The position numbers and the translations under genes were made by a program. The notes under the pieces were generated by a model. That model worked only from the letters and a program-made list of their open reading frames with translations. It was not told the DNA's origin and searched no databases. A stretch of 64,000 nt of DNA from assembly GCF_000585395.1 (NCBI RefSeq), contig NZ_KK073875.1:4450524-4514523 (forward strand), given 5' to 3'. Origin of the DNA: Saccharibacillus sacchari DSM 19268 (GTDB taxonomy: Bacteria; Bacillota; Bacilli; Paenibacillales; Paenibacillaceae). Shown here piece by piece: positions 23,178-54,744 of this stretch (position 1 is the first letter of the stretch; each line of letters begins with the position of its first letter).

Positions 23178-23322
23178 GAAGCGGGGGGCTACGGGGAAAA
23201 GTCCGTTTCGGTCGCTGTTGAACTCAGAAAATTGGATTGGAATTAATAATGGGATTTTCCGAGTTCAAAGGCGATCACTTGCGTTCCTGCACTGGACTTC
23301 TCCCCTTCGCCGTATAGCTTCG
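23178..23322 (+). repeat. Structured element copy C, sense strand plus
   Basis: Member of the family described in the findings. Inner stem GAACTCAGAAAA (23220-23231) / TTTTCCGAGTTC (23255-23266), one mismatch; outer stem GGGGAAAAGTCC (23193-23204) / GGACTTCTCCCC (23294-23305), one mismatch. Conserved words TCGCTGT, GGATTGGA and TTCAAAGGCG are in the family order. Unlike the others it does not follow a same-strand gene, so it may be a free-standing RNA or a relic. Confidence 0.75.
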
Positions 23323-23436
23323 CAAAAGCAAAGGAACTTCATTTTTCGAAAAAGTAAATAAAAACATAAAAGATACAGATAAGGGCTAAGTGAGCGAGAT
23401 GAGGATTCGCTCGCTGGCGCCGGTGATTAAAAGCGA

Positions 23437-23463
23437 AGCGGGAGCTGGGCACCCGCTTTTTTT
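23437..23463 (+). terminator. Plus-strand terminator downstream of element C
   Basis: AGCGGG pairs with CCCGCT around an AGCTGGGCA loop, followed by seven T on the plus strand. No plus-strand gene precedes it, which suggests that it ends a non-coding transcript containing element C. Confidence 0.6.
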
Positions 23464-23511
23464 AAATCCTTACACTTATGGAACGCAGAAAGCGTTTGAA
23501 CAGATCACTTT

Positions 23512-23552
23512 TCGGCAGAACTTTTGGGTGCAACTGGAAAGTTTCTGCCGGA
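23512..23552 (-). other. Hairpin downstream of the Gfo/Idh operon
   Basis: TCGGCAGAACTTT pairs with AAAGTTTCTGCCGGA with one bulge, 55 nt past the stop of the minus-strand dehydrogenase gene. No T run follows; probably a transcript-end or stability structure. Confidence 0.5.
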
Positions 23553-23606
23553 AGGGATTTGGATCAGAGTCCGCTTATGCCGGCGTTCTTCAGCGCATAA
23601 GGAATC

Positions 23607-24689
23607 TTAGTTGAAGTATACGGCTTTGCCGGTTTTGGCGGACTCGTAGAGGGCTTCGAGAATTTGGGTCACCACGAGGGCTTGTTCCGGTTTAACGACC
23701 GGATCTTTGTCTTCGAGGATCGCTTCGAGCCATTGGCGAGCTTCGCGGTCTTCGGCGTTTTCGGAGCCGCCGTCATAGAAAGCTACGCCGCCGGAGCCGA
23801 AGTCGACTTTGGTTTCGACAAGGCGGCTGCGGTTTTCGCCGTTGATATGCAGGCCGTCAGCCATGTCTGCGCCGCCTTCGGTGCCGCAAAGCAGCGTTTG
23901 GGCTTCGCCGAATTTGCGCACGTTGAGCGCCCAACTGGATTCGAGCACGATCGTTGCGCCGTTCTCCATTTTGATGAAGCCGAACGCGGAATCTTCGACT
24001 TTGAATTGTTCCGGATCCCACGGTCCGAAAGCGTTGGCTGCATTTTCGCGGCTGCCGAGCTTATGGAAGGTCGAGCCCATGACGCTTTGCGGCTTGTAGT
24101 TGTCCATCAGCCAGAGAGTCAGGTCAAGCGCATGCGTGCCGATATCGATCAACGGACCTCCGCCTTGTTTTTCTTCGTCGAGGAACACGCCCCAAGTCGG
24201 AACGGCGCGGCGGCGCAGTGCGATCGCTTTGCCGAAGTAGATATCGCCGAGCTCGCCTTTTTCGCACATGTCTTTCAAGTGCAGGCTGTCGTCGCGGAAG
24301 CGGTTTTGGTAAGCGATCGAAAGTTTTTTGCCCGTACGCTCTGCCGCTTCGATCATGCTGCGCGCTTCTTCCGTCGTTTTGGCCATCGGTTTTTCGCACA
24401 GGACATGCTTGCCGGCTTCAAGTGCCGCAATCGTGATTTCCGCGTGGGAATCGTTCGGCGTGCAGACGTGAACGACTTCGATGCTTGCATCTTTCAGCAA
24501 TTCCGTATAATCCGTATAGACTTTGGCACCTTCGGCGCCGTATTTGTCGGCAGCTTCTTGAGCACGGGATTCGACGAGGTCGCAAAAAGCGACGAGTACG
24601 GCTTTATCTTGTCTGGACAGAGCCGGAAGGTGCTTGCCGTTGGCAATGCCTCCACAACCGATTACGGCGACGTTAAGCGTTTTAGACAT
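23607..24689 (-). CDS. Gfo/Idh/MocA-family oxidoreductase 1
   Basis: 360 aa. Rossmann nucleotide-binding start NVAVIGCGGIANGKHLPALS, the family EKP motif (HVLCEKPMAKTTEEARSMIE) and GGGPLIDIGTHALDLTLWLM with the catalytic Asp/His. NAD(P)-dependent oxidation or reduction of a sugar or polyol. The start overlaps the preceding isomerase gene by 8 bp and its AAGGAG lies in that gene's last codons, so translation is coupled and the pair is a functional unit. Substrate unknown. Confidence 0.92.
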   Translation of the reverse strand: MSKTLNVAVIGCGGIANGKHLPALSRQDKAVLVAFCDLVESRAQEAADKYGAEGAKVYTDYTELLKDASIEVVHVCTPNDSHAEITIAALEAGKHVLCEKPMAKTTEEARSMIEAAERTGKKLSIAYQNRFRDDSLHLKDMCEKGELGDIYFGKAIALRRRAVPTWGVFLDEEKQGGGPLIDIGTHALDLTLWLMDNYKPQSVMGSTFHKLGSRENAANAFGPWDPEQFKVEDSAFGFIKMENGATIVLESSWALNVRKFGEAQTLLCGTEGGADMADGLHINGENRSRLVETKVDFGSGGVAFYDGGSENAEDREARQWLEAILEDKDPVVKPEQALVVTQILEALYESAKTGKAVYFN

Positions 24690-25452
24690 TCAATTTTGCT
24701 CCTTCTGCTGCGTATTTTTTAACCCATTCCATGCTTGTAGCAATACTTTCGAGCGGTTGGCCGCCTGCACAGTAGTCCTGTTCGACAACGATCCACTTCA
24801 CTCCTGCTTCGATTGCGGCATCCGCGATGGCTGCAAGATTGACTTCGCCTACGCCCAGTTCAGCCGTAATGGCTTTTCCGTCGGCATCGCGCGTCATGTC
24901 TTTCAAGTGAATGATCGGCAGGCGTCCTTTGTAGCGATTGATGTATTCGACCGGATCGTAACCGCCGTAGTGTACCCAACACGTATCCATCTCGACTTGC
25001 AGGTCTTCGGCCGGAACGGCATCGTACATGGCGTCGAACACCGGCTTGCCGTCGACTTCTTCCGTCATTTCGAAGTCGTGGTTATGATAAGCCAGCACGG
25101 CGCCCTGCTTGCGGGTACGCTCGCCGAGGTCTTTCAGATTCGCGAAGACTTTGTCCCACTGGCGATCTTCTTCCACCAGGTAAGGGACGATCAGCGTATT
25201 GTTGCCGATTTGTTTGTTATACGCGATTTCCGCGTCGAGATGCTCAAGCAGTTGGGCGTACGCCGTATGCGTGCCGAGCGCCGTCAATCCAAGCTCGTCG
25301 AGAATCGACTTTACTTCTTCTGCGCCGCGGCCGAAGAACGTATGGAATTCCACGCCTTTGTAACCCAGGGCGGCTACCTTCTCAAGCGTTCCGCGGAAAT
25401 CTTTTTCCATTTCTTCGCGTACGGTGTACAACTGCAATCCTACTTGCGTCAT
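24682..25452 (-). CDS. Sugar phosphate isomerase/epimerase-like TIM barrel 2
   Basis: 256 aa from the ATG at 25452 (GGTGGAG 6 nt upstream; a GTG further up overlaps that site). AP-endonuclease-2 fold with VGLQLYTVREEMEKDF, AYHNHDFEM (Glu/His region), QVEMDTCWVHYGGYDP and IIHLKDM. Resembles IolE-like or YcjR-like isomerases that work with Gfo/Idh dehydrogenases on 3-keto sugars; YcjR-type 3-keto epimerisation is one option. Sits between two Gfo/Idh genes in an operon. Confidence 0.88.
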   Translation of the reverse strand: MTQVGLQLYTVREEMEKDFRGTLEKVAALGYKGVEFHTFFGRGAEEVKSILDELGLTALGTHTAYAQLLEHLDAEIAYNKQIGNNTLIVPYLVEEDRQWDKVFANLKDLGERTRKQGAVLAYHNHDFEMTEEVDGKPVFDAMYDAVPAEDLQVEMDTCWVHYGGYDPVEYINRYKGRLPIIHLKDMTRDADGKAITAELGVGEVNLAAIADAAIEAGVKWIVVEQDYCAGGQPLESIATSMEWVKKYAAEGAKLNV

Positions 25453-25476
25453 TGTGTACTCCACCTTTTCATCAAA

Positions 25477-26568
25477 TTATAATTTGAGCGAATCGTGTCT
25501 TGCGGCGGGAACTTTGTACGAGCTGTCGAGCGTGACATGACGGCTCTCCGCGGATGAGTGCATAAAAGCATGCATTGCTTCCAGCACGTGATAAGCCAGC
25601 TCTCCGCTTGCCCGATGACGACGGTTTTCCCGAATGCTTTTGACCATGTCTTCGACGCCCAGCCCCCGCTCGTTGCGGGCACTCTCGAATATAGGCTGAA
25701 GAATCTCCCAATTTTCCGATCCGGCGCGGCGCAATCTGACATCCCCGCCGAAAAAGTTCGGATCAGGAAGCGACAGCGTCCCTGCCGTGCCGTAGATTTC
25801 CATCCGCGGCAATTCGGTAGCTCCCCGCACGTCGAAACTCATAATCATCGTCACGATCGGTCCGCCCGCGAAATCCAGCGTCCCTGCCAAATGGGTCGGG
25901 GTCTGAACCGTGATCGGAGTTCCCGCTTTCGGCCCTGAGCCGATTACGCGATCGGGAATCTGGATGCCGGTCGATGAGCTGATCCGCTGAATCGGGCCCA
26001 GAAGATTGACCAATGCCGACAAGTAGTAAGGTCCCATATCGAACATCGGACCTCCGCCGTAGGCATAAAAGAACTCGGGGTCCGTATGCCAACCTTCCGG
26101 ACCTCCGCCAAGCATGAAAGCCGTTCCCGCAACCGGTCGACCGATCAATCCTTCCTCGATCGCGCGGCGGGCCGTGCTGAGCCCCGCGCCCAAAAAAGTA
26201 TCCGGCGCGCAGCCTACAGCGAGGTTCCGCTTGGCGGCCTCGTCGAGAATCAGGCGGGCATCCTCCAATGAGACGGCAAGCGGCTTTTCTCCATAAACGT
26301 GTTTGCCGGCCTCAATAGCAGCCAGATGTACAGAAGCGTGACTGGCAGGAATCGTCAGGTTGATGACCAACTGTATCGATTCGTTTTCCATTAACTCTTC
26401 CACTGTGCAAGCGGTTGCAATGCCGAATTCGGCAGCACGTTCTTCCGCCTTTTCGAGTACACGGTCGGCGAGCGCAACCACTTCGATCCATTCGCTCGCG
26501 GCTAGATTTTGCAAGTATATCGCGCTGATGTTGCCGCAGCCGACAATTCCGGTCTTCATGCGTGTCAA
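25477..26568 (-). CDS. Gfo/Idh/MocA-family oxidoreductase 2
   Basis: 363 aa from a TTG at 26568 that has AAGGAG about 10 nt upstream; an ATG at 26559 (MKTGIVGCGN) fits the family start better but is further from the site. Rossmann motif GIVGCGNISAIYLQNL, EKP motif (HVYGEKPLAVSLEDARLILD), GGGPMFDMGPYYLSAL. Only distantly like the other dehydrogenase here, so they are not recent duplicates. First gene of the operon, divergent from an AraC regulator. Confidence 0.9.
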   Translation of the reverse strand: MTRMKTGIVGCGNISAIYLQNLAASEWIEVVALADRVLEKAEERAAEFGIATACTVEELMENESIQLVINLTIPASHASVHLAAIEAGKHVYGEKPLAVSLEDARLILDEAAKRNLAVGCAPDTFLGAGLSTARRAIEEGLIGRPVAGTAFMLGGGPEGWHTDPEFFYAYGGGPMFDMGPYYLSALVNLLGPIQRISSSTGIQIPDRVIGSGPKAGTPITVQTPTHLAGTLDFAGGPIVTMIMSFDVRGATELPRMEIYGTAGTLSLPDPNFFGGDVRLRRAGSENWEILQPIFESARNERGLGVEDMVKSIRENRRHRASGELAYHVLEAMHAFMHSSAESRHVTLDSSYKVPAARHDSLKL

Positions 26569-26752
26569 AAGAACACCACTCCTTCGTGTCGATTACCAAG
26601 TTGCTCGATCGCCGAAATATTCTCGGTTTCTTTTGTTCGTGGTTGGTTCGCTTTCATGGTATTGCATATCGATTTGTATTAAAATGAAGAATATAATCGA
26701 AACATGAACAATCTGGTCATTATTTTATTTTCTTTTTCAAGGAGTAGCTGAT

Positions 26753-27577
26753 ATGCAGACGACTGACCTCCCTTGCCAAGTATTTACCGCAGGATTTTCC
26801 TTCCACCGTACTCCTTTTCACGTTCACCGAACGGAAGGCCTTGGCAGTTATCTGCTTCGCCTTCAGACGGACGGCACTTCCGAAGCTCTCGTTGATGGAA
26901 AAATGCAACGGATTGAAGCCGGAGACCTGCTGCTCTACGGGCCGGACGAGACGTATGAACTCAAAATTTTCCCTCCTTCGCCTACGGATAACCGCGAGCG
27001 GCCGATGGAAAGCGGGGATTACCACATCTTTTTTGGCGGCGAATGGATCGATCGTTGGTGGAACGAACGCAAGCGCCCAACCAAGATCAACATTCCGCTC
27101 AGCGAAGGACTGCTCGGTTTGTTCCGGCAGATCGTGATCGAGCAGCGCCGCATTTCCAATCCGGACCCGCGCATTTCGGATTATTATTTGCGCATTTTAT
27201 GCCTGGAGACGGATCGTTTGCTGAATGAACAGCCGATTTCGTCAGGCAAAACCTTTCTGGCTTATCGCATCAAACAGTATATCGAAGAAAACGCCTCTTC
27301 CCTGTTCAAACTCGAAGACGTCTCTTCTTATGTGGACATCAGCGTCTCCCGCTGCGTTCATCTGTTCAAGGATACGTTCGGGATCAGCATCATGCAGTAT
27401 GCCCTCGAAGTGCGGCTCGATATGGCAAAAGAACGAATCGTGTTCAGTCCGATGCCGCTCGAACAAGTCGCCGAGACATCAGGGTTTGCCAACTATACGT
27501 ATTTTCACCGGGTATTCCGCAGCAAATTCGGCATGTCGCCGAAAGAGTTCCGGCATACGCGGCAGGAGAAGATGTAA
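26753..27577 (+). CDS. AraC-family regulator, probable activator of the sugar cluster
   Basis: 274 aa. N-terminal cupin-like sensing domain (~1-165, DGKMQRIEAGDLLLYGPDET) and two C-terminal HTH motifs (~185-270: LFKLEDVSSYVDISVSRCVH and SPMPLEQVAETSGFANYTYF, closing FRSKFGMSPKEFRH). ATG 26753 has AAGGAG. A TATAAT at 26692-26697 lies 56 bp upstream without a good -35. Divergent from the dehydrogenase-isomerase operon, the usual place for a sugar-responsive regulator of that operon. Confidence 0.92.
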   Translation: MQTTDLPCQVFTAGFSFHRTPFHVHRTEGLGSYLLRLQTDGTSEALVDGKMQRIEAGDLLLYGPDETYELKIFPPSPTDNRERPMESGDYHIFFGGEWIDRWWNERKRPTKINIPLSEGLLGLFRQIVIEQRRISNPDPRISDYYLRILCLETDRLLNEQPISSGKTFLAYRIKQYIEENASSLFKLEDVSSYVDISVSRCVHLFKDTFGISIMQYALEVRLDMAKERIVFSPMPLEQVAETSGFANYTYFHRVFRSKFGMSPKEFRHTRQEKM

Positions 27578-27582
27578 CGCGT

Positions 27583-27626
27583 GAAAAATCCCGTTCGAAC
27601 GCTTCAGGCGCTTGAACGGGATTTTC
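27583..27626. terminator. Bidirectional terminator after araC-type gene
   Basis: AAAATCCCGTTCGAACGC pairs with GCGCTTGAACGGGATTTT. It lies between two convergent genes and has A and T tracts on both sides of the stem. Confidence 0.85.
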
Positions 27627-27647
27627 ATTGTGGCAGGAGGATTCCCT

Positions 27648-28034
27648 CTAACCATTCGATTCGCGTTTCTTTTTCTTCATTTGCTCGATCTCTTCAGCCA
27701 CGACCATACCCAGATCTTCATTGCCGAACATCGTGAGAACGCCGAGCAGCGTATCGTTGGTGATATCGCCGGCTTCCTCCTTGGAAACGGTCAGCTCCAG
27801 TCCGCGCGCCAAGCGTTCGTTCGCCTGCTGCTCCGGATAGGCTCTGGAATAGAGTTCCACCGGATCGAGGCCGTTGTTGATACACCACTGCGCATAAACG
27901 AGAATCATCATGTCTTCCTCTTGGCGGTAGACCTCCACGATTTTCTCCTGCGTTTCCTTTTCCAGCTCGCGCCGTCCTTCCGTACTTTCGTAGCGCTCAT
28001 AATCGACGTCCCGGTTCTCGTCGTAATCGTTCAT
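27648..28034 (-). CDS. Conserved-looking hypothetical acidic protein
   Basis: 128 aa, highly charged, predicted soluble and largely helical; no signal peptide or membrane segment. Segment EEDMMILVYAQWCINNGLDP at ~38-58 and ERLARGLELTVSKEEAGDIT at ~72-92; a Lys-rich end (MKKKKRESNG). Clear AGGAGG site before the ATG. I do not recognise the family. Convergent with the AraC gene, divergent from msrAB. Confidence 0.75.
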   Translation of the reverse strand: MNDYDENRDVDYERYESTEGRRELEKETQEKIVEVYRQEEDMMILVYAQWCINNGLDPVELYSRAYPEQQANERLARGLELTVSKEEAGDITNDTLLGVLTMFGNEDLGMVVAEEIEQMKKKKRESNG

Positions 28035-28346
28035 TTTTCGTCCAACCTCCTTTCATTTAAAATAGATTTTGCCTTTTTCCATGAACAAGGCGCGTTGCAA
28101 TGTCTCGGCAGGAGTCATGCAGCAGCTTCCTTTTCGAGTATACGCGCCCGACGCTGGATTGGCAAAGCAATAACCATCATGCGCAACCCGTTGATTCGTC
28201 AACCGCCGGAACGTTTATCTAGGCTTGTGTGCGTAAAGAAGCGCCGGCACTTGCGCAAGCTTCAAAAACGTTTATAATTTAAAATATAACTTCTAATTAA
28301 TTGCGCATCAAACAATTGATTCAAATAAAAATACGGAGGGATTTAC
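28035..28346. other. 312-bp intergenic region upstream of msrAB
   Basis: Contains a TATAAT at 28273-28278 on the plus strand with a weak ACTTGC -35 at 17 nt spacing, a candidate msrAB promoter with a ~65-nt leader. Nothing else recognised. Confidence 0.5.
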
Positions 28347-29321
28347 ATGGCCGATTATCCATCTTCTATGATCGAAAAAGCAACGTTCGCGGGAGGCTGC
28401 TTCTGGTGCATGGTCACCCCGTTCGAAGATTTGCCGGGCATCGTGAAAGTCGTCTCCGGCTATACCGGCGGACACACGGAAAACCCAACTTATAAAGAAG
28501 TATGTTCGGAAACGACGGGACACGTCGAAGCGGTTCAAATCACGTATAACCCTGAACTGTTCCCGTACGAAAAATTGTTGGAACTGTTCTGGCAGCAAAT
28601 CGATCCTACTGACGGCGGCGGACAATTCCACGACCGCGGTTCCTCTTACGGTACGGCAATCTTTACCCATACGGACGAACAGCGCATCAAAGCCGAAGCT
28701 TCCAAAAAAGCCCTCGGCGAAAGCGGACGCTTTGACAAGCCGATCGTAACGCCGATCCGTCCGGCCGAAACGTTCTACGAAGCGGAAGAGTACCATCAAG
28801 ACTACCATAAGAAAAACCCGGGCCACTATAAACGCTACAAAAAAGCCTCCGGCCGCGAAGCGTTTATCGAGGATCATTGGAAAACAACCGTCAACAAAGA
28901 CGATCTCAAACAGCGTTTAAGCGAAATACAGTATAACGTGACGCAAAAAAACGGCACCGAGCCTGCTTTCCATAACGAGTTCTGGGATCATCACGGCGAA
29001 GGCATCTACGTCGACATCGTCTCGGGCGAGCCGCTGTTCAGCTCACGCGACAAATACGACTCGGGCTGCGGATGGCCAAGCTTCACCCGTCCGATCCGCG
29101 ATTATCACGTGAAGGAAAAAGTCGACCTGACGCATTTCATGATTCGCACCGAAGTGCGCAGCAAAGAAGCCGACTCCCATCTGGGCCACGTATTCGACGA
29201 CGGTCCGGGTCCGGACGGTCTGCGCTATTGCATCAACTCCGCCGCGCTGCGGTTCGTGCCTGCGGAAAAGCTCGATGAAGAAGGCTACGGCGAATATCGC
29301 GCGTTGTTTGCTCAATCCTGA
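28347..29321 (+). CDS. msrAB: Bifunctional peptide methionine sulfoxide reductase MsrA/MsrB
   Basis: 324 aa fusion. MsrA part ~1-165 with catalytic C18 in GGCFWC; MsrB part ~180-315 with [18 protein letters not shown], a resolving Cys in SGCGWPSF and catalytic C295 in [10 protein letters not shown]. The CxxC zinc pairs of many MsrB proteins are absent, as in Bacillus MsrB. Together the two domains reduce both S- and R-methionine sulfoxide in oxidised proteins. ATG 28347 follows GGAGGG. Confidence 0.96.
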
Positions 29322-34152: not shown

Positions 34153-34285
34153 GCGAGGCTTGGGTCGGTCGGCTGCGGGGGAGGTCGTTTCGGTCGCGTG
34201 TTGCTTTAGAGCATACGCTTCCGAAGTGCCTTTTCTTCGAAAAGCCTTTACTACATGACCTCCCCTCCGCCTCCCTTAGGCCTCG
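34153..34285 (+). repeat. Structured element E, diverged, sense plus
   Basis: Outer arms GCGAGGC (34153-34159) / GCCTCGC (34279-34285) and GGGGAGGTC (34178-34186) / GACCTCCCC (34257-34265) are perfect. It shares GTTTCGGTCGC with copy C and CGGCTGCGGGGGA with copy F, but the inner core is different. Starts 9 nt after the SDR stop. Confidence 0.55.
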
Positions 34286-34436: not shown

Positions 34437-34615
34437 TCGACAAACACTAACGTAGCTGGAAGCGAGAAGACAGAGAGAGAAATTCAGTGAAAGACGCCTT
34501 TGAACTCGGAAAACTTCAACTAAAAATTCCAATCGACTTTTCCGAGTGAGACAGCGACTTGAACGAATTTATCTCGCAGTCTTCTCGCTTCCCTCGCCAA
34601 AAGCTAGTTTTTCGA
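34437..34615 (-). repeat. Structured element copy A, sense minus
   Basis: Outer stem GGAAGCGAGAAGAC (34458-34471) / GTCTTCTCGCTTCC (34579-34592), 14 bp perfect; inner stem ACTCGGAAAA (34504-34513) / TTTTCCGAGT (34538-34547), 10 bp perfect. Conserved sense words TCGCTGTCTCA, GATTGGA, TTCAAAGGCG. The stop codon and last ~15 codons of the hydrolase gene lie inside the sense 5' arm. Confidence 0.85.
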
Positions 34616-36047
34616 CTTCAGCAGTCATCGCGTTAGTGTCCAGGCCGCCGTGGTTGCTGAGGAGGATGATGACCGTTCCGTCGTTTAGGCCCCGGCGAAT
34701 GCCGGTGGTGTAGCCGTCGCCGCCGCCGCTGTGGAAAGCGACGCGGTTTTGCCCTTCGCCGTCGACATGCCAGCCGAAACCGTAATTTTTGTACGGGCTC
34801 ACGGTGTACATGCGTTCCATCGTTTCTTCGGACAGCACTTTGCCTGCGCTCAGCGCTTGGGACCAGGTTAGCATGTCGTCGAGCGTGGAATAGAGACTGC
34901 CCGTGCCGGAAGGCGAGAAGTAGTAGTAATCGACGCTCTTCCATGCGCCTTCTTGCCAATCGTATTCGTAGCCGGTCGGAATCTTGGTTTGTCTCGTTGC
35001 GGTTCCGCTATGCTTCATGCCGAGCGGGTCGAGAATTTGAGATTGAACGAAGTCCGCATAACTCATGCCGGAAGTTTCTTCGATGATGTAAGCAAGCAGC
35101 ACGAAGCCGCTGTTGCTGTACATGTAATCGGTACCCGGGGCGAATTTGAGCGGACTTTGCTTGATTTCTTCGACCGTCTCCGATAACGGGATTCCTTCTT
35201 CGCGTTTAAAATTCAGCGCGATTCCGGATGTGTGCGAAAGCAGCATCGCCAACGTGATTTCGTCCCCGCTAGGATAGTCGGGGATGTGCTGCGACAATGT
35301 GTCGTCGATGCTCAGCTTGCCTTCTTCGCCCAGCTTCAAGATCGAAGCGGCGGTAAAAGCTTTGGTCAGGGAACCGAGCCGCATTTGATCCGTCGGCCGG
35401 ATCAACGTCGAACCCGAAGACAACCCGTACGACTTGCGCATCAGCGCTTCGCCGTCTTTGGCGATCAATACGCTGCCGGAGTAATTTTGGTCTTTGAGAT
35501 AATCGTTTACAGCCGACAGGCCGGTATCGTAATTCGTTTCCGTGTCTGTTTTAAGCGATAAATTCAATACGCCGCCGCTGGTCACCGGGCTTACTTTTGC
35601 CCGCAAAGGCTCGGTCAGCCCGCGCAGCGGTACGGTCAGAATACCGTCCACGTAACGCGTCGTGCCCGGCATTTGCAGTTCGTAGCCGTTGACGGATACG
35701 GTGGTGGAATCAGGGCGGTAAAGCAACTCGTCCCCATTCAGCGTTACGATTGCCGCACGCTGGGCTTTGTCCCACTTCACCTTCGCCCCCAGCGAAACTG
35801 CTCCTTCCCGCACCGGCACGTAGGTCAAGGAACGATACGTGTAGACGCTGCTCCCCCACTGCGCAGGCTGACCGTCGATCTCGGCAACGATCGAAGAGAT
35901 CCCGGCTGATACCGTTGCCGGAGAAAGTCTTGCCGATATCGCTTCTTCCGCGTAAGCGGGCAGCGTGCTCGAAGCTACTGCAAACGCCAATCCGGCGCTA
36001 AGCGCCATTTTGCTCCAGGCAGAGCTTTTTTTTCCGTAAAACTTCAT
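34569..36047 (-). CDS. Secreted serine hydrolase (beta-lactamase/DD-peptidase fold) with copper amine oxidase N-like module
   Basis: 492 aa from the ATG at 36047 (GGAGG upstream). Signal peptide with cleavage near AYA-EE (33); copper amine oxidase N-like module ~50-165 (TYRSLTYVPVREGAVSLGAK, LTVPLRGLTEPL); class-C beta-lactamase-like domain ~175-480 with S226-L-T-K229, Y310-S-N312 and HSGGGDGY. These are the three catalytic motifs of the family; esterases, DD-peptidases and beta-lactamases share them, so antibiotic resistance must not be assumed. The C-terminal codons (GEGSEKTAR) are encoded inside structured element A. Confidence 0.9.
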   Translation of the reverse strand: MKFYGKKSSAWSKMALSAGLAFAVASSTLPAYAEEAISARLSPATVSAGISSIVAEIDGQPAQWGSSVYTYRSLTYVPVREGAVSLGAKVKWDKAQRAAIVTLNGDELLYRPDSTTVSVNGYELQMPGTTRYVDGILTVPLRGLTEPLRAKVSPVTSGGVLNLSLKTDTETNYDTGLSAVNDYLKDQNYSGSVLIAKDGEALMRKSYGLSSGSTLIRPTDQMRLGSLTKAFTAASILKLGEEGKLSIDDTLSQHIPDYPSGDEITLAMLLSHTSGIALNFKREEGIPLSETVEEIKQSPLKFAPGTDYMYSNSGFVLLAYIIEETSGMSYADFVQSQILDPLGMKHSGTATRQTKIPTGYEYDWQEGAWKSVDYYYFSPSGTGSLYSTLDDMLTWSQALSAGKVLSEETMERMYTVSPYKNYGFGWHVDGEGQNRVAFHSGGGDGYTTGIRRGLNDGTVIILLSNHGGLDTNAMTAEVEKLAFGEGSEKTAR

Positions 36048-36215
36048 GTTTGTACATCCTCCTGTCATTCATAGCGCGCATTCCTGCACGTATTCTTCGC
36101 TTTCCCTCTACATTATGTATACCGAACTTCGGCTTATTAGTTGTGTGCATTAACAATTTAGAACAGCGATTATTGAATCCGAATAATCACTATACTTTAT
36201 ATAGCTAGTATTTTT

Positions 36216-41002: not shown

Positions 41003-42082
41003 ATGAATGAAACATTGGAACAGCTGCGGGCCAGCGTTGACGGAATCGACTCCCAGCTGCTGGAACTGCTCAGCAAACGCGCGGAATTGGTACACCAAAT
41101 CGGACAAGTGAAAGAAAACCAAGGCGTACCCAAGTTTGAGCCGGAGCGCGAAAAGGAAATCCTTGACCGCGTAACGGGCCTGAACAAAGGACCTTTCTCG
41201 GACAGCACGCTGAAGCATCTGTTCAAAGAAATCTTCAAGGCGTCGCTGAACATTCAGCAAGAAGATCACAAGCGCCAGCTGCTGGTTAGCCGTAAAAAGC
41301 GTCCGGAAGACACCATCGTCAAATTTAACGGCGTTGAAGTCGGCGGCCCAAGCCCGATCCTCGTAGCAGGTCCTTGCTCGATCGAATCGCGCGACCAACT
41401 GCGTACCGTTGCCAAAGCCCTCAAAGAATCGGGCATCACGGTTATGCGCGGCGGTGCCTTCAAACCAAGAACGTCCCCTTACGACTTCCAAGGTCTGGGT
41501 CTGGACGGCCTGAAATTGCTGAAAGAAGTTGCGGACGAGTTCGGCCTGGCAACAATCAGCGAAATCGTACACCCTTCGCATATCGAGATCGCTGCCGATT
41601 ACATCGACGTGATCCAGATCGGCGCGCGCAACATGCACAACTTCGAGCTGCTGAAAGAAGTAGGCGGCGCGAAAATTCCGGTTCTGCTCAAACGAGGCCT
41701 GTCCGCGACGCTGGACGAGTTCATCCACGCGGCCGAGTACATCATGGTTAGCGGCAACGAGCAAATCATGCTGATCGAACGCGGGATCCGCACTTACGAG
41801 ACAGCAACGCGCAACACGCTCGACATCTCGGCGGTTCCACTGCTCAAACAAGAAACTCACCTGCCGGTTATGGTTGACGTGACTCACTCGACCGGACGCA
41901 AAGACATCATGCTTCCTTGCGCAAAAGCCGCTCTGGCAGCCGGCGCAGACGGCATCATGGTCGAAGTTCACCCGGATCCGCAAACGGCATTGTCGGACGC
42001 GGCTCAACAGTTCGACATCCCGCAATTCGGCAACTTCTGGAACGGCCTGAAAAACTCCGGCCTATTCGGACCGCGCTCGTAA
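41003..42082 (+). CDS. aroA: Bifunctional chorismate mutase / DAHP synthase
   Basis: 359 aa, named aroA in Bacillus. Chorismate mutase domain ~1-85 ([20 protein letters not shown], with the AroQ Arg/Lys/Glu residues) fused to a type I-beta DAHP synthase ~100-355 ([57 protein letters not shown]). First step of the shikimate pathway, condensing PEP with erythrose 4-phosphate, feedback-regulated through the mutase domain by chorismate or prephenate. AroC, the last shikimate enzyme, is encoded convergently 460 bp away. Structured element D begins 18 nt after the stop. Confidence 0.96.
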
Positions 42083-42100: not shown

Positions 42101-42236
42101 GGAAAGGCCTGGGGGAGGCGGCGGGAATTCGCTCAGTTCGCTGTCTCAATCGGGAAGCTGGATGGATTGGATGAAGGAAGCTTCCCGATTTCAAAGGCGA
42201 ACTTCACGATCTCCTTCTGCCTCCTACGGCCTTTCC
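42101..42236 (+). repeat. Structured element copy D, sense plus
   Basis: Inner stem AATCGGGAAGCT (42148-42159) / AGCTTCCCGATT (42179-42190), 12 bp perfect; outer arms GGAAAGGCC (42101-42109) / GGCCTTTCC (42228-42236) and GGAGGC / GCCTCC. Sense words TCGCTGTCTCA, GGATTGGA, TTTCAAAGGCG conserved; the stem bases differ from copies A and B on both arms. Confidence 0.85.
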
Positions 42237-42312: not shown

Positions 42313-42492
42313 TGTCGAGAAAGGCTAACGTAGCTGGAAGACAGAAGGCGGAGAGAGAAATTCAGTGAAAGACGCCTTTGAACTCGGAAAACTCCTTATT
42401 TAAATCCAATCCTTTTTCCGAGTGAGACAGCGCCTTGAACGAATTTCTCTCGCAGCCTTCTGTCTTCCCGCGCATACGTAACTTTTTCGACA
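42313..42492 (-). repeat. Structured element copy B, sense minus
   Basis: Outermost TGTCGA (42313-42318) / TCGACA (42487-42492); outer stem GGAAGACAGAAGGC (42336-42349) / GCCTTCTGTCTTCC (42455-42468), 14 bp perfect; inner stem ACTCGGAAAA (42382-42391) / TTTTCCGAGT (42414-42423). Same core as copy A, but four outer-stem positions changed together on both arms. Confidence 0.87.
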
Positions 42493-42543: not shown

Positions 42544-43599
42544 TTAGTTTAATAGGGCGGCTTGGCGTTTGAAGTGGTCTTCGACAACCAGGCAGACCAT
42601 GCTTTCGACGACGGGAATGATTCTCGGGCAGATGCAAGGGTCATGTCTGCCGACGGTAGAGATTTCCGTTTCGGTTCCGTCAACGGTCACCGTCTGTTGC
42701 GGCTTGGAGATCGACGAAGTGGGTTTGACGACGACTCGGAAGACAATGTCCGCTCCGTTGCTGATGCCGCCGATGATTCCGCCGCTGTTATTCGTCAAAA
42801 AGCCGTCGCTGTTCATTTGGTCATTATGCTCGCTGCCCAACATTTTCGCCGCCGCGAAGCCCGCGCCGAACTCGATCCCTTTGATCGCTCCGATCGACAA
42901 CATGGCTTTGGCCAAGTCCGCATCCAATTTATCGAAAGCCGGTTCTCCGAGGCCGGGAGCTACTCCCCGTACGACGCATTCCACGATCCCCCCGCAGCTA
43001 TCGCCTTCTATAGCCAACGATTCGATAAGCTTGACCATTTTCTCTGCCGCTACCGGATCGCAGGCTCTGACGGGGTTTTGCTCGATGAACGATTCGACAA
43101 ACTGCTCGCATTGAATGCCGCCGATCTCCGACGTATACGCAACAACGGAGACGCCTCTTTTTTCAAGCAATTTTCGGGCTACGGCTCCAGCAGCGACACG
43201 CGCGGCCGTTTCTCTGCCGGAAGCTCGCCCGCTCCCCCGATGATCCCGGATTCCGTATTTTTTATGGTACGTAAAATCGGCGTGACCGGGTCGGAACGAA
43301 TCTTTGATATCGCTGTAAGCGCTCGGCTGCATATCATGGTTAAACAACATGATGCAGATCGGCGTACCGGTCGTTTTGCCTTCGAAAACGCCGGACACGA
43401 TTTTGATTTTATCGTATTCTTTGCGCGGCGACGTGACCGACGATTGACCCGGCTTTCTGCGGTCCATCTGAATTTGGATATAGGATTCTTCCAACTCCAC
43501 GCCCGGAGTCGCTCCGTCTATAATCACGCCTACCGCTTCCCCGTGAGATTCTCCGAAAGTCGATATTTTCAGTCGTTCTCCAAATACATTGCCTGGCAT
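42544..43599 (-). CDS. aroC: Chorismate synthase
   Basis: 351 aa. MPGNVFGERLKISTFGESHG start, HADFTYHKKYGIRDHRGSGR with the FMN-binding RGSGRASGRETAARVAAGAV, and FLTNNSGGIIGGISNGADI are hallmark motifs. Converts EPSP to chorismate with reduced FMN. The usual aroC-aroB-aroH cluster is not present; it stands alone, divergent from a LysR-type regulator. ATG 43599 follows AAGGATG. Confidence 0.96.
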   Translation of the reverse strand: MPGNVFGERLKISTFGESHGEAVGVIIDGATPGVELEESYIQIQMDRRKPGQSSVTSPRKEYDKIKIVSGVFEGKTTGTPICIMLFNHDMQPSAYSDIKDSFRPGHADFTYHKKYGIRDHRGSGRASGRETAARVAAGAVARKLLEKRGVSVVAYTSEIGGIQCEQFVESFIEQNPVRACDPVAAEKMVKLIESLAIEGDSCGGIVECVVRGVAPGLGEPAFDKLDADLAKAMLSIGAIKGIEFGAGFAAAKMLGSEHNDQMNSDGFLTNNSGGIIGGISNGADIVFRVVVKPTSSISKPQQTVTVDGTETEISTVGRHDPCICPRIIPVVESMVCLVVEDHFKRQAALLN

Positions 43600-48555: not shown

Positions 48556-48663
48556 CTGTTCACCTCCTGACACCGCTGTTCAAAAAATCGCAGTCTTATA
48601 TGTTTACCAACGCCACGTCATACGGAAATGTTGCTTAAATTAGAAAAGAAAGTGCGGCACTCA

Positions 48664-48710
48664 TAAAAAAAGTCCCCTTTGCAAGCCTAAGCTCGCAATG
48701 AGGACTTCCC
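48664..48710 (-). terminator. Terminator of the hybrid kinase gene
   Basis: AAGTCC-AGC blocks pair with GCT-GGACTT (48670-48707), then TTTTTTTATG on the minus strand. It begins 18 nt past the kinase stop and insulates the serpin operon from it. Confidence 0.78.
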
Positions 48711-48727
48711 AAGCAACATGATATCCG

Positions 48728-51700
48728 CTAAAGCTTTTCCGAATGCGAATTTCCTTTCCCGAGTAGGCGCGTTCGGGCTATGTTCAGTACCCGTTCCACT
48801 TCGGACGCGGCCACGGGCTTGCTAATGAATTCATCCATCCCGCCGGAAAGACATCGTTCCACGTCCTCTTCCCGTACAAAAGAACTCACTCCCACGATCA
48901 ACGGCGTTCGATCCGGAGGCAGCTGCGTACGGATGCGCGAAGCCGCTTCAACGCCATCCGCGCCCGGCATCCGTACATCCATGAAGATCAAATCGTAATC
49001 GCCGGAGATCGCCCGTCTGATTGCGCGTTCCCCGTCCTCGACCGTATCCGCACGGCAGTCAAATCGGGCGAGCATAGCTTCAAGAACCTTGCGATTCACC
49101 GGAAGATCTTCGGCAATCAGAATGCGCAAATCCTGACGCGGCTCCGGAGCCGGCGGCGCCACGCTCGGCTTGATCGCCGGCTCGACCACTTCTTCGATAT
49201 CCGTGAGACCGATAAACGGCTTACCTTCCGTATCCGGAATCAAGAACCGAAGCAGGAAACGGAAGGTTGCGCCCTCCCCTTCTTCGCTCTCCACCGAAAT
49301 CATTCCGCCCATCAATTCAACCAATTTACGGCTAATCGACAAGCCGAGTCCGGTTCCCCCATACTTGCGGTTCAAGATCGGATGCAATTGGGAAAAAGGC
49401 TGGAACAGACGATGCTGCAACTCGCTTGCGATTCCGATTCCCGTATCCGTCACCGCAAATTCGATCCAGACTTCGCTAGGGGCACGGAACGCTCTGGGAG
49501 TCACGCGAAGCGTCACGCTTCCCTGCTCCGTGAACTTGATTGCATTCCCGACCAGGTTAATCAATATTTGACGCAAGCGCTCGCTATCGGCAATCACGAC
49601 CGAAGGCACGCGCTGAACCGATTCGTCGACGGCAAATTTCAAAGCCAGATTTTTCTCCGTCGCGCGCGGCAGGAAGAGTTGAATCACGCTGACCAGCACC
49701 TCGCGCAACTCCACGGGCCGAGGCTCGATCTCCATGCGCCCGGCCTCGATTTTGCTGATATCCAAAATCTCGTTCAAAATCTTCAACAACGCGTGGCTGC
49801 TCTCGGAAATGATATCGGCATACTGCCGCTGCTCCTGTTGAAGCTCCGTTTCGCGCAGCAAATCCGTCATTCCGATGATTCCGTTCATTGGCGTGCGCAA
49901 CTCGTGGCTGACGGTCGACAAAAATTCGGACTTCGCCTGATCCGCACGCTCTGCCGATTCTTTTGCCCGGATAATTTCTTTCTCTCCGGTCACGTCGCGA
50001 AATACGAGTACGGCTCCCCGACGTTCATTACGATCCAGAATCGGCGTAAACTGGTAGGAAACGAGGAAGCTTCCGCCGTCTTTTCTCCAGAACACCGCTT
50101 CAGGCTGCGCATGCGCAACGCCGGAATGAAGAGCATCCAGCAGCTCTGCTCCGCCAGCCTGATAAGCGCTCTCCTGAGTTTGCGCCTGTCGCATCATTTC
50201 CGAGTAGGAGCGACCGATCGCTTCTCCGCCCTCATAACCAAGCATGGCCGCGGCAGCCGGATTGGTGAACATCACGCGGCCCGTCGTATCAAAGCCGATG
50301 ATCCCTTCCGAGACTGTATTAAGCAGCAGCGAATGCTGGTAGCTGAGCGCTTCGATCTGTGCCGTATATTGCTTGCGTTCCGTGATATCGGTAATGATCG
50401 CATACACGCCGGACTGATCTTTTTTCGACCCGATCGGAACGTAAGCGACGCTGACGTCGCGCATTCGTCCATCGCGGCGATGGAACGTCGTTTCGAAAAC
50501 GCGGGACTCCCCGTTGCGCGCAGCCTCGAAATGGTTGCGCGAAAGACCGGCGTATTTTTTGGGCTGAAGCATGCCGATTCGAAGACGCTGCATCTGCTCG
50601 CGATTATAACCGCACATGGCTTCCATGGCCGGATTGACGCTCAAAATGCGTCCTTTCATATCCAGGGATATGATGCCCGAATTATGGTTCATGAAAAGCG
50701 AACGATACTGGCTCTCGCTGCTACGCAGCTTCTCCTCGATGCGCACGCGGGCGGTCACGTCCTGCACGATGCCGATCACCTGCAAAGGCTCGCCGGTCGT
50801 ACTGTCTTTGGACACTTCCCAAACGTCGTAAATCGTCTTTTCGGCCCCGTTGGGCAGTTTGATCCGATAAGTAATCTCTCCGTCGCGCCCGTTTTTCAAA
50901 ATCCCGGCCACCACGGTTTCGAAACGTTTCCGATCCTCGGGATGGATAAGACGAAGCAGCGATTCCGTTCCCGACTCGACCCCGTTCACCGCATAATCGA
51001 AAATTTCCCGCATTTCCCGGGAAAAAGTAAGGCGCATCTGCACCAGATCCCATTGCCAGGAACCGATGCTGGCAAGCTGCTGGGCTTTCGCCAACACGAC
51101 GTCGTTCATCTTCCGCTCGGTGATGTCGCGCGCAATAACCAAGATCCGGTTCACTTCGCCATTCGAGCCGCGAATAAGTCGAAACGAGGTATCCACCCAA
51201 CGAACGCTGCCGTTTTTGTGCAGCACGCGACGTTCGAAGGTTTCGTTTTCCGCGTACAGCGTCCCTTCGATCGTCATTTTCGTGGCATCGCCGGAATGGT
51301 AAAACGCAGTCCGATTCCGTCCCAGCATCTCCTTCGGCGTATAACCCAAAGTCCGCTCGACCGAAGGGGACACGTATAATAACGTGCCGTCCGGCTTGCT
51401 GAAAGAGATCATATCGGGCGTGTTTTGCGTAATCAATTTATAAATCTCCCGAGTGCGATCCCCCTGATCGCCTACAGTAAGGTTGCGTTCGGATACGTCA
51501 TCCATATAAACCAGGGCGAAAGGCGGTTCGCCGTCACCGGAAAGTTCGCACTCCACCTCAACCCATACGATATCTCCTCCGCTTCGCGCAAGACGGATCT
51601 CAATAGGTCCGAACGACCGTGGTTTCTTCTGCCATTCATCGAAGTAATCCAGAAGATCAAGCGCACTATCCGCCTCGGCGCGAAGCAATTGCAAATAACC

Positions 51701-51865
51701 GTCGCCCAGAAGTTCAGGAGCGGCTCGGCCAACGATCCGGCTTGCGGCCGGATTTGCACCGACGCATTTCCCTCCCAAATCGAGAATCAGGACACCGGTT
51801 GATATTTTGTTATATATGCGTGTATGCAGGGATGCGTTTGGAATATCGGACGAGGTCAAGTTCAT
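48728..51865 (-). CDS. Multi-PAS hybrid sensor histidine kinase
   Basis: 1045 aa, no membrane segment seen. Five PAS domains (~15-125, ~140-252, ~262-375, ~385-497, ~510-628), HisKA with H654 in SHELRTPMNG, HATPase_c with N box NLVGNAIKF (770), DTGIGI (807) and GGTGLGLS (836), then a linker and a C-terminal receiver with phospho-acceptor D963 (LIFMDVRMP) and K1016. Several PAS end in DITERK-like PAC motifs. A soluble hybrid kinase without a DNA-binding partner nearby; the signal must go to a separate HPt or regulator. Class typical of phosphorelays in spore-formers, but a sporulation role is only a guess. Confidence 0.92.
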   Translation of the reverse strand: MNLTSSDIPNASLHTRIYNKISTGVLILDLGGKCVGANPAASRIVGRAAPELLGDGYLQLLRAEADSALDLLDYFDEWQKKPRSFGPIEIRLARSGGDIVWVEVECELSGDGEPPFALVYMDDVSERNLTVGDQGDRTREIYKLITQNTPDMISFSKPDGTLLYVSPSVERTLGYTPKEMLGRNRTAFYHSGDATKMTIEGTLYAENETFERRVLHKNGSVRWVDTSFRLIRGSNGEVNRILVIARDITERKMNDVVLAKAQQLASIGSWQWDLVQMRLTFSREMREIFDYAVNGVESGTESLLRLIHPEDRKRFETVVAGILKNGRDGEITYRIKLPNGAEKTIYDVWEVSKDSTTGEPLQVIGIVQDVTARVRIEEKLRSSESQYRSLFMNHNSGIISLDMKGRILSVNPAMEAMCGYNREQMQRLRIGMLQPKKYAGLSRNHFEAARNGESRVFETTFHRRDGRMRDVSVAYVPIGSKKDQSGVYAIITDITERKQYTAQIEALSYQHSLLLNTVSEGIIGFDTTGRVMFTNPAAAAMLGYEGGEAIGRSYSEMMRQAQTQESAYQAGGAELLDALHSGVAHAQPEAVFWRKDGGSFLVSYQFTPILDRNERRGAVLVFRDVTGEKEIIRAKESAERADQAKSEFLSTVSHELRTPMNGIIGMTDLLRETELQQEQRQYADIISESSHALLKILNEILDISKIEAGRMEIEPRPVELREVLVSVIQLFLPRATEKNLALKFAVDESVQRVPSVVIADSERLRQILINLVGNAIKFTEQGSVTLRVTPRAFRAPSEVWIEFAVTDTGIGIASELQHRLFQPFSQLHPILNRKYGGTGLGLSISRKLVELMGGMISVESEEGEGATFRFLLRFLIPDTEGKPFIGLTDIEEVVEPAIKPSVAPPAPEPRQDLRILIAEDLPVNRKVLEAMLARFDCRADTVEDGERAIRRAISGDYDLIFMDVRMPGADGVEAASRIRTQLPPDRTPLIVGVSSFVREEDVERCLSGGMDEFISKPVAASEVERVLNIARTRLLGKGNSHSEKL

Positions 51866-52347
51866 TCTCCTTTAAAAGGCTCTTCAACAACATGCATGCA
51901 AGCGGCAAAACGTCCGGATCATTCGTAAATTCAGCAGGTCCGCTTCCTGAAGAAGCCAGCCTGATGAATTCACTCATACCCGGACAATATGCCGATTCGG
52001 CACGCTTATCAGCCTTACCGTTAAAAGTCTATTCTTATCTTTTACCCAAATCCGTAACCTTTATATCGAATTCGAGCCTCTATCCGTCAAATTTCGCGCT
52101 CAGTCGCTTTCTTGCAGCGCAATTTGTCAGGCCGGGTACGATTATAACATATACATCGTATCAAATAAGGGTTGGTATTTTAAAGATTGTTTTGGTGAAT
52201 CGCTATGTAGAAATTTGTCGAAACTTTTGTCAATTCGATGTAAAGCGACGTAAATTCGGCTATAGTTAAAAGAACTAAAAAATTCGGATGATTTCCTTTT
52301 AAATCGGCTCATGCCGAAATGAACCTTTCATCCTGAAGGAGGAACCC
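51866..52347. other. 482-bp divergent region between hybrid kinase and DUF2325 gene
   Basis: An extended -10 (TGTTATAAT on the minus strand, 52149-52141) is a candidate kinase promoter with a ~270-nt leader. On the plus strand TTGTCA (52227) and TATAGT (52261) are 28 nt apart, too far to be one promoter. No gene, hairpin or repeat recognised in the rest. Confidence 0.5.
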
Positions 52348-54642
52348 ATGAAACGAATCAAACCTTCTGCGGCGAAGACGTCCGTCTCATCCAATCGACC
52401 CCATAACGAACCGGATCTATCTTCTACATACACCTTAAGCGAAGAACGAGTTTCGGCAATGCCGATCCCTTTCCTATCGCCGCTCCTACGCGAATTAAAT
52501 GAAACTTCCAAACGCAAAATGGCGCAAGTTCTTGAATTCTCTTTTGCCCGTCGAGGTGCTTATAAATGGCCCCAAGTTTTATTTGCCAAGTCGATGCTTG
52601 ACCTATACTCCCAAGCTCGGGGCAGCCGGGAAATCAGACGCAAGCTGGCGGAGGCTGTGATTACAGCCATACGCCCCCTGCTCGATTCGACTGATCCGGC
52701 CTTTTCTCCGGAACAATTCGATGCGGATCCGGCAGATTGGACCCTGCATCATGGCAAGTGGCATTGTTATTGGGCGTTATATTTTTCCTCTTCGGCCGAT
52801 CCGTTCGAAGAAGCCGGACGTCTGCGGCTTGAACGATTGGCTGCCGAAACGACCGTCGCATCTCCCGCTGCGGAGTCTCTTGCAGAGGCGACGGTTGCGC
52901 TTGATCCTCTGCCTTCCGACCTTCGCAACGAAGCTGCCGAACAGCGTCGCATCGAAAAGCTTAATAAGCGTATCGAAGCATTGGAGGAGCGGGCGCGCCG
53001 GGAAGAAGAGCGAGCACGACGATCAGAAAAGGAAACTTCGGATGCCAAACGCGAAACGGCCAAACTGCGCGAACATTTGAACCGGAGCGAACTGGAACTG
53101 GAAGCCGAACGGCGGTTGACTCATCGATTGACCGAAGAACGGGAGTCTTTTGCAGGACGCCTTGCCGAATCGAAGCGTCAGCACAAGCAGGATCGGAGCC
53201 GCCTCGAAGAAGAACTGGCCGAAACGAAACGGATCGCGGAAGCGTTGGAAAGTCGAATTCGAACGATGCAGACTGAAGCTGAACAGGAAGCCTTTGCGGG
53301 TACGGAAACGGAAGACCGTGCGGCTAACGATCTTCACGAGGAGCGTCCTTTTTCGAACTCCGACCGACCGCAGCATCAAGGAATTGCATATGCAGACCGG
53401 GTATCTCCTAAATCCGCAGTCAACATGGACGATGCAGAGAGCACGATCCATCGATTCGACTCCCTTTTGCGACGCGATCTGCGCGAAGCGGGAACCTCGT
53501 TGCCGGGCGGGCACGAACCCGGAGATCCCGAGGCGCGAACGCATATGCGTCGCATACTCGACTTGCTGGATGCCGTGGATGCTTACGTCGCAGGCCGAAG
53601 ATTGGCGCGCGGCGTCGATGTATTGGCAGATATGCGTCAAATGCCACGGGATCCTTCGGTTCAATCCACGAGCAACCGCGGACAAGATTCGCTGGATCGC
53701 GAGGAACATCCAACTGTGCAAGAACTGCAAGCGGAAGCTGGTTCACGCGAAGATCGCGGCATGGCCGAAGCGCTGGAGCAATTCGAATCGAATGAACGTA
53801 CAGAGGAAAACGGACAGTCCGGTACCTTCTATCGCAGAGACCATGGCGGTTATATCGTGCTCGAAGAAGGGGAAAGCTTCAACATTACCGAGTCGATGGT
53901 GTACAAGCATCAGCTTCAACATGAAGCCGAAGTGTTGTGCATACCGAGACCTGACGGTCATGGCGGAACGCAGTATGAAATCTCGCTGCTGTTCCAGGGG
54001 GATGATACCTTCTCCCCGGTTCGTCAGTACAACGGATATGCGGAGCAGGATGAATACGGAACCTGGTATGCGGTAGATATGAACGATGCGGACCGCCGTT
54101 ATCCCATCCATACTCGGGATTTGGATATTCAGCGGCCCGTCGACGGCGCGCCTTGCATCTTCAACGTCGGCGAGGAAGAAACCGTTGCCCGTCTTGCACG
54201 GGTCTATCGAGACTTCTCTGCTCCGGATGCGCCGCAACGAAGAGAGTCTTCCGTATTGCGCTCTGCCTCCTCTTCTTCGTCTTCGAGCAAAACTAAACGC
54301 GAAGGCCGTAAAAATAAGCCTGAGCCGTTCTTGCAAGGCTGCACGGTCGTGGTCATGGGCGGGCAACGCAAATGGTTTGAAGATGTGGTCGTGGAAAGCG
54401 GCGCCGAATATGTTCATGAAAATGGTCTACGACCGGACCTCGTCGCCTCGGACTTGCGGCGGGCGCAGGCGCTGTTCCTGCTGATTACGTCGACGTCGCA
54501 CCGCGCGTCTTGGGAAAGCGTCGAGCTGGCGAAAGCGGCGGAGATTCCCTACTTTATTATTCAGGGGTCGAAGTCGAATTTGCGCAGTATGTTGTGGGAG
54601 AACCGGGACGCGATCATGGAGGCGAACCGAGGCGACTTGTAG
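52348..54642 (+). CDS. Large DUF2325-containing coiled-coil protein
   Basis: 764 aa. N-terminal ~35-190 globular (LSPLLRELNETSKRKMAQVL, KSMLDLYSQARGSREIRRKL); long coiled coil ~195-320 (Glu/Arg heptads); a loosely conserved acidic middle; a compact ~500-620 segment (DHGGYIVLEEGESFNITESM); a Ser run near 650; and a C-terminal DUF2325 domain (~675-764: CTVVVMGGQRKWFEDVVVES, LITSTSHRASWESVELAKAA). DUF2325 is a small Rossmann-like domain of unknown function with conserved Gly-Gly and Ser/Thr-x-x-x-H positions, kept here. ATG has GGAGG. Function unknown. Confidence 0.85.
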   Translation: MKRIKPSAAKTSVSSNRPHNEPDLSSTYTLSEERVSAMPIPFLSPLLRELNETSKRKMAQVLEFSFARRGAYKWPQVLFAKSMLDLYSQARGSREIRRKLAEAVITAIRPLLDSTDPAFSPEQFDADPADWTLHHGKWHCYWALYFSSSADPFEEAGRLRLERLAAETTVASPAAESLAEATVALDPLPSDLRNEAAEQRRIEKLNKRIEALEERARREEERARRSEKETSDAKRETAKLREHLNRSELELEAERRLTHRLTEERESFAGRLAESKRQHKQDRSRLEEELAETKRIAEALESRIRTMQTEAEQEAFAGTETEDRAANDLHEERPFSNSDRPQHQGIAYADRVSPKSAVNMDDAESTIHRFDSLLRRDLREAGTSLPGGHEPGDPEARTHMRRILDLLDAVDAYVAGRRLARGVDVLADMRQMPRDPSVQSTSNRGQDSLDREEHPTVQELQAEAGSREDRGMAEALEQFESNERTEENGQSGTFYRRDHGGYIVLEEGESFNITESMVYKHQLQHEAEVLCIPRPDGHGGTQYEISLLFQGDDTFSPVRQYNGYAEQDEYGTWYAVDMNDADRRYPIHTRDLDIQRPVDGAPCIFNVGEEETVARLARVYRDFSAPDAPQRRESSVLRSASSSSSSSKTKREGRKNKPEPFLQGCTVVVMGGQRKWFEDVVVESGAEYVHENGLRPDLVASDLRRAQALFLLITSTSHRASWESVELAKAAEIPYFIIQGSKSNLRSMLWENRDAIMEANRGDL

Positions 54643-54656
54643 TTGTCGCTAAGGCG

Positions 54657-54744
54657 GGTAAAGAAGTTCCTATTCGCTGGGGGGAAGCTGGGCGGCTGCG
54701 GGGGAAATTCGCCTATCGCTTCGCTGAATAGGAACGACTTTACC
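54657..54744 (+). repeat. Structured element F, partial copy, sense plus
   Basis: GGTAAAG-AGTTCCTATTC pairs with GAATAGGAAC-CTTTACC. Inside it keeps GGCGGCTGCGGGGGAAATTC (compare copies D and E) and a shortened AATTCGC to TTCGCTG stretch, but lacks the GATTGGA and AAAGGCG core. Starts 14 nt after the DUF2325 gene stop and is followed by a terminator. Confidence 0.55.

Follow-up and report, generated by a model that had tools for sequence, protein, structure and literature searches.

Introduction

Repetitive extragenic palindromic (REP) elements and bacterial interspersed mosaic elements (BIMEs) are high-copy hairpins of intergenic DNA, frequently arranged as inverted pairs. Here we analyze hairpin elements of another kind, six copies of which lie in a stretch of 64,000 nucleotides of Saccharibacillus sacchari DSM 19268 (contig NZ_KK073875.1, positions 4,450,524 to 4,514,523; hereafter the window) and which belong to a large and apparently so far undescribed family in Paenibacillus and its relatives. 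They differ from REPs and BIMEs in being longer and modular and in carrying terminal inverted repeats in a subset of copies, and no REP-associated tyrosine transposase (RAYT) was found in the host genome.

Structured interspersed repeats that resemble miniature inverted-repeat transposable elements (MITEs) have been described in the Bacillus cereus group as bcr1-bcr3, often within untranslated regions (UTRs) or operon spacers, and the same account associates the presence of bcr3 within a transcript with a longer half-life (PMC3446304). Those repeats were found in B. cereus (PMC3446304); the present family has a core that covaries throughout an order and several types of ends. A survey of 40 bacterial genomes reported families of intergenic stem-loop repeats with a common predicted structure; its main text never mentions Paenibacillus, and no matching family name was recognized (PMC2267715). 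As for mobility, the insertion sequence (IS) IS1272 is described as targeting stem-loops, often just downstream of genes, and replacing the target stem-loop, while a stem-loop on both sides is drawn in that paper only as a model pathway (PMC5678879). Our elements share with it the stem-loop targets and, in the ISs with matching ends, the IS1182-family transposase domains; they differ in that the stem-loop flanks both sides and in the involvement of a structured MITE (PMC5678879).

Like Rfam families, the element is structured and covaries. None of the 4227 Rfam families reached its gathering score at the window elements, nor did any match 14 related loci (scans at gathering or E up to 1), in agreement with the initial annotation of the window, which knew of no named family. 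The few Rfam matches, a T-box and preQ1 riboswitches, lay away from the elements. A literature search, which mostly did not cover subscription journals, found no published description. The reading that we favour, although it falls a little short of being probable, is that of a structured mRNA element of 3'UTRs and intercistronic spacers, borne by MITEs, with the stability or processing of mRNA ends or cistron boundaries as its likeliest function.

A covarying core found throughout the order

The core follows the order CGC-TGT-stem-loop-stem-AAG-GCG. In the whole element the outer stem varies and the asymmetric internal loops are conserved. It also has an invariant 3-bp CGC/GCG helix and a 3x3 TGT/AAG loop, together with a freely varying, covarying stem and, in several genomes, an apical CCGC..GCGG hairpin. 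All four clear copies of the window follow the plan first proposed, in which an outer stem and TCGCTGT(CTCA) are followed by an inner stem, an apical word, the return stem and TTCAAAGGCG. Folding gives long interrupted hairpins for the four, with z values against dinucleotide shuffles of -4.2 (copy at 23178), -6.0 (42101), -7.5 (34437) and -8.9 (42313). Two of the supposedly fixed words had to be corrected: apical GATTGGA is actually GATT-like, and TTCA pairs with TGAA, is unpaired in the CTCA copies and is elsewhere swapped as a pair. Within the amplified Saccharibacillus set, 101 of 112 copies of the S. sacchari genome have the CTCA form, which leaves three positions unpaired. For the Paenibacillaceae loci (at least 80, with 7 removed as coding matches) the stem start TGAA/TTCA was imposed by the choice of search pattern; in other genomes the first stem pairs change jointly, to TTGTC/GACAA or TTGTAG/CTACAA. 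Of the 112 S. sacchari copies, 18 have additional modules in their left arm and 7 in their right arm.

The initial annotation had argued for a covarying structure from a handful of copies; the two-arm differences it named between the copies at 34437 and 42313 are indeed in the sequence, and larger samples bear the argument out. We aligned 81 of 275 candidate cores (alignment A2), namely the four window cores and 77 others that a script selected to have distinct stems, so that the sampling favours variation and not pairing. They contained 237 double-change cells against 67.9 (standard deviation 5.8) after shuffling, and the score was 0.482 compared with 0.125 for shuffled cores and at most 0.190 with slid partners. 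The first nine variable pairs were Watson-Crick in 87% of the cases versus 44% when arms were exchanged between copies, in 77 sequences of 18 genomes hand-picked among the matches listed, near-duplicates and coding-like matches being omitted. The same can be followed between orthologous copies of S. sacchari and its close sister G015 (ca. 92% identity over aligned stretches). Among 2126 predicted pairs in 35 orthologous copies of equal orientation, 65 had changed on both sides (41 of them are now Watson-Crick) and 264 on one side, where simple arithmetic for independent site change would expect ca. 18 double changes. Both two-sided changes of single pairs with the loop largely kept and replacements of whole arms that stay paired are visible between copies. 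In a comparison of 44 rows, several had the wrong register on CGCTGCGGG and were excluded on visual inspection.

The strict pattern CGCTGTN{30,60}TTCAAAGGCG had 173 matches in the S. sacchari genome (reversed pattern, 0), 143 in the sister and from 0 to 18 in each of 14 further genomes of the genus; it was found in 149 of 394 genomes of the family, coding matches partly included. The covariance-model search of the genome (R1) gave 150 matches, each with E of at most 1.2e-9, of the 150 scored among 2801 candidates. A relaxed pattern retrieved 960 copies (reversed control, 10). They came from 72 of the 119 order genomes, with 77 as the largest number in any one, and multi-copy genomes appeared also in families besides that of the window; S. 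sacchari itself has only 2 such matches because the CTCA form does not fit this pattern. Tandem arrays of two or three copies ca. 200-430 bp apart were seen at two loci (L135, L169) and in several genomes of the family. A fixed partner gene was considered and discarded, the neighbor proteins of 61 copies forming no large cluster (the largest had 5).

Genomic location, strand and constraint

With genes called by our own codon-usage script, none of 95 S. sacchari copies fell within a called gene and 6 were in divergent spacers, which make up 43 of the 182 background spacers of at least 150 bp (window and loci L041-L080). This avoidance of divergent spacers is seen in other genomes as well (3 of 127 copies). 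When the upstream gene is co-oriented, its stop codon lies at a median of 65-72 nt from the core (S. sacchari copies). Outside Saccharibacillus the strand is also biased: in tandem contexts the mRNA strand is the complement of the one read in the initial annotation in 69 of 90 cases, versus 21, and still in 55 versus 16 after removing the orthologous set (36:9 in named loci and 19:7 in five further genomes). Wobble pairs point in the same direction. On the annotated strand, 18 genomes outside Saccharibacillus show 8 GU and 29 AC, that is 29 and 8 on the complement, and the 84 intrinsic terminators that a script found in stretches of the S. sacchari genome have 40 G.U and 15 A.C mismatches (Fisher p 1.8e-6 for the element wobble against these terminators). 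Outside Saccharibacillus, the RNA strand is thus likely the complement of the annotated one. Of the 3'-UTR-like nature originally proposed, the location in spacers and at 3' ends stands, while a strict 3'UTR role in the annotated orientation is not supported by the strand counts in tandem contexts.

We examined four vertically inherited loci in Paenibacillus (3, 5, 5 and 7 genomes). At all four the core is better conserved than the outlying spacer: outside the pattern words a fraction of 0.80-0.90 of the core is invariant, and farther into the spacer this drops to 0.0-0.5 on at least one side. Locus X precedes the QueF gene and follows a putative queE, in a run with QueC headed by a preQ1 riboswitch. 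Locus Y lies between an ABC permease gene and the gene of an NlpA-type lipoprotein, locus W between a permease gene and a binding-protein gene, and locus Z upstream of a TldD/PmbA gene.

Three types of ends and the history of insertion

Ends of the TGTCGAGAAAGT type (T1) were detected on both sides of 31 of 111 S. sacchari copies and 13 of 85 copies of the sister, and never with the reversed motif. Seventeen of the 31 measure 179-183 bp and the longer ones contain modules. TGTCGAGAAA ends also delimit IS1182-family ISs in the S. sacchari genome (L243, L245) and in P. apiarius (L309, L313), and were absent from the other IS1182-like loci examined. Each of the four ISs is flanked on both sides by the same terminator stem-loop. 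Transposase domains PF13751 and PF05598 occur in the ISs with matching ends; the sister retains only a remnant with PF05598. In L245 the IS1182-type transposase frame (514-1890) is split over two frames, by programmed frameshift or by decay. The T1 copies thus fit an IS1182-family MITE, since they share ends and target outcome with ISs of the same genome, and for that subset of 31 copies the match is to the ends of a mobile element, an outcome that the initial annotation, which had contrasted the copies with MITEs, had itself named as refuting. The T1 copies may have been moved in trans by an IS1182-family transposase. The whole family cannot be described as IS1182 MITEs, given that other ends are found elsewhere and that 80 of the 111 S. 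sacchari copies do not have both T1 ends at the threshold used.

Words of at least 8 nt shared by both flanks were present in 12 of 31 S. sacchari and 7 of 13 sister T1 copies, compared with 4.5% and 9% of shuffled pairs. In two further genomes T1 ends border 6 of 6 (G464) and 5 of 6 (G444) core copies, all 11 with shared stem-loop words in the flanks. Presence differs between S. sacchari and its sister at three sites; at two of them (L089, L099) the species without the element shows a single undivided stem-loop, and the third (L114) may be an insertion or a deletion. The orientation differs in place at two sites (L105/L087 and L114/L097). A partner in the same orientation was found for 35 of 40 located copies in S. 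sacchari and 36 of 48 in the sister, so that most located insertions are older than the split of the two species.

The same core is found within MITEs with quite different ends, T2 (TAGAAGTCCGGTGAA) and T3 (GAGGCCACTGAAAAA). T2 ends border 9 of 10 core copies in genome G451, and no target duplication was seen in 13 T2 MITEs, all of 170-178 bp except one of 102 bp. In G445, with 12 core copies, 7 have T3 ends and 1 has T1 ends. Among 18 distinct T3 elements, exact 8-bp duplications were found in 6, or in 8 allowing one mismatch, and in 0 of the shuffles. Half of these T3 elements (9 of 18) and 10 of the T2 MITEs contained recognizable core words. T1 ends were assigned to 7 and T2 ends to 3 of the 75 copies at named loci. 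The reversed-motif controls for the ends gave none.

Copies in the window

Table 1. Elements of the family and associated stem-loops within the window
Feature	Position	Strand	Description
Copy A	23178..23322	+	core 23213-23273, paired TGAA/TTCA form; without TGTCGAGAAA ends
Core-deleted copy	34153..34285	+	module GCTTCCGAAGTGC..TTCG retained; 58 nt including the core missing relative to the sister
Copy B	34437..34615	-	T1-type, core 34495-34556, outer stem GGAAGCGAGAAGAC; truncated towards the 34569-36068 (-) gene
Copy D	42101..42236	+	CTCA form, core 42139-42199; downstream of the 41003-42082 (+) gene
Terminator-like stem-loop	42277..42305	.	GCAGCTCTGCG..CGCAGAGCTGC; one flank of copy C
Copy C	42313..42492	-	complete 180-bp T1 MITE, core 42373-42432, TGTCGA-type inverted ends
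Second stem-loop	42500..42527	.	identical stem; opposite flank of copy C
Core-deleted copy	54657..54744	+	reduced to the outer stem; lacks 99 nt with the core relative to the sister (L118)

Of the four clear copies, those at 34437 and 42313 read on the minus strand (Table 1). The two copies regarded as diverged are true relatives, the orthologous sites of the sister revealing the loss of the core in both; they still fold, with z of -3.8 (54657-54744) and -4.4 (34153-34285). What did not hold is the separation of copies B and C from MITEs. Both have IS1182-like ends, C forming a complete MITE and B one that is truncated, and C resembles the ISs with such ends also in having one and the same terminator stem-loop on either side. 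The orthologous site of copy A is occupied in the sister, in altered form. Copy B supplies the final codons and stop (34569-34615) of the gene at 34569-36068 (-). The orthologue of this gene in the sister terminates immediately ahead of the element, and at another locus (L007, near 1500-1561) a T1-type element likewise provides the last codons and stop of a gene. The gene upstream of copy D has chorismate mutase/DAHP synthase domains, and copy C lies downstream of a chorismate synthase gene (42544-43599, -). The orthologue of copy D in the sister (L100) bears an additional nested hairpin; a second family of nested hairpins, GTAACTTGTCTCA..TGAGACAAGTTAC in L100 and with related words in L027, occurs within or adjoining elements. 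Of 66 copies lacking the T1 outer stem, 18 have the word CCT[AG]TTCG upstream. In the core-deleted copy at 54657, outer-arm positions 54663-54676 read GAAGTTCCTATTC, which equals a half-site of the yeast FRT, probably by coincidence.

Function and alternative explanations

In the favoured reading the element would be transcribed downstream of genes or between cistrons, outside Saccharibacillus usually in the form 5'-CGCCUUUG..stem..CAACAGCG-3', and would act at the RNA level as a stable module that shields the 3' end or lets neighboring cistrons be degraded or processed separately, like REP or bcr elements. MITEs with at least three types of ends would spread it as cargo. For T1 the simplest possibility would be transposition by an IS1182-family enzyme with terminator stem-loops as its targets and the stem-loop on either side as the outcome; T2 and T3 MITEs would be moved by other transposases. 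We propose further, and only tentatively, that MITEs belonging to unrelated transposase families repeatedly captured one conserved mRNA module as their cargo in different parts of the order.

Several observations weigh against this interpretation. At the thresholds used, none of the three end types was recognized in 64 of the 75 named copies, nor in any of 6 looked at in G288, a genome with 77 copies, and transposases for T2 and T3 were not found. The vertical loci were located through recurring pattern matches, a choice that favours conserved ones, and 12 of the 29 AC cells belong to a single pair and may be related by descent. Saccharibacillus itself is the least favourable case. There the copies are weakly biased in orientation (37:26 and 28:19) and no strand preference of wobble was seen with the ten pairs scored in the later count (18 GU and 12 AC in S. 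sacchari, 11 and 9 in the sister; 6 and 12 in the other genomes of that count). A first, smaller count (GU and AC: 6 and 10 in S. sacchari, 0 and 7 in the sister, 2 and 14 in named loci) was not upheld in its Saccharibacillus part, and strand-specific wobble is therefore claimed only outside this genus. The divergence of element sites in Saccharibacillus is also close to that of the flanks (394 of 4252 paired, 290 of 2075 unpaired and 1155 of 13206 flank sites). Without a wobble signature and with this flank-like divergence, part of the compensation there may have arisen at the DNA level; of the selected structure initially proposed, the covariation stands and its origin within Saccharibacillus is qualified to that extent.

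The main rival, which we consider unlikely but serious, is that these are purely selfish MITEs, with arms kept complementary by intrastrand template switching and loops needed by a transposase or host factor for movement. Their location would then result from terminator targeting and the purging of harmful insertions. The amplified subfamilies specific to genomes, the ends and target duplications, and the whole-arm swaps that remain paired all agree with a selfish hairpin, and the Saccharibacillus data alone, with few wobble intermediates, would argue in its favour. Data from across the order do not: vertical loci are conserved without these ends, wobble is strand-specific and orientation biased outside Saccharibacillus, and the presence of the same core with three end types indicates that no single transposase needs it.

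A termination or antitermination device, in which the hairpin acts as, insulates or overrides adjoining terminators, would suit the placement between stop codons and terminators, the convergent gene pairs and the stem-loops retained on both sides. We regard it as improbable, as no U-run follows the element in the copies read and many have separate terminators, and the vertical copies internal to operons argue against plain termination. Still less probable is a regulatory RNA sensing a ligand or protein. Conserved internal loops with covarying helices are what such an RNA would show, and locus X is within a que operon headed by a preQ1 riboswitch, but up to 173 copies per genome lie by unrelated genes and their neighbors do not cluster. 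REP elements moved by a RAYT (Y1) transposase, suggested by the high-copy intergenic hairpins and their frequent inverted pairs, are hardly credible, since inverted ends and target duplications are DDE-like and PF01797 was found in 1 of 18 genomes searched and, at the sensitivity of the search, in neither S. sacchari, for which we reject them, nor its sister.

Implications

Bacterial MITEs are usually recognized by their ends; here the interior is conserved and structured and the ends differ, which makes the question of whether MITEs carry functional RNA directly testable. IS1182-type elements show at several sites in several genomes the two-sided stem-loop outcome that had been, in the IS1272 paper, a model pathway (PMC5678879). 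If the reading favoured here is true, transposons would be supplying many genes, at their 3' ends and in operon spacers, with one RNA device useful to the host.

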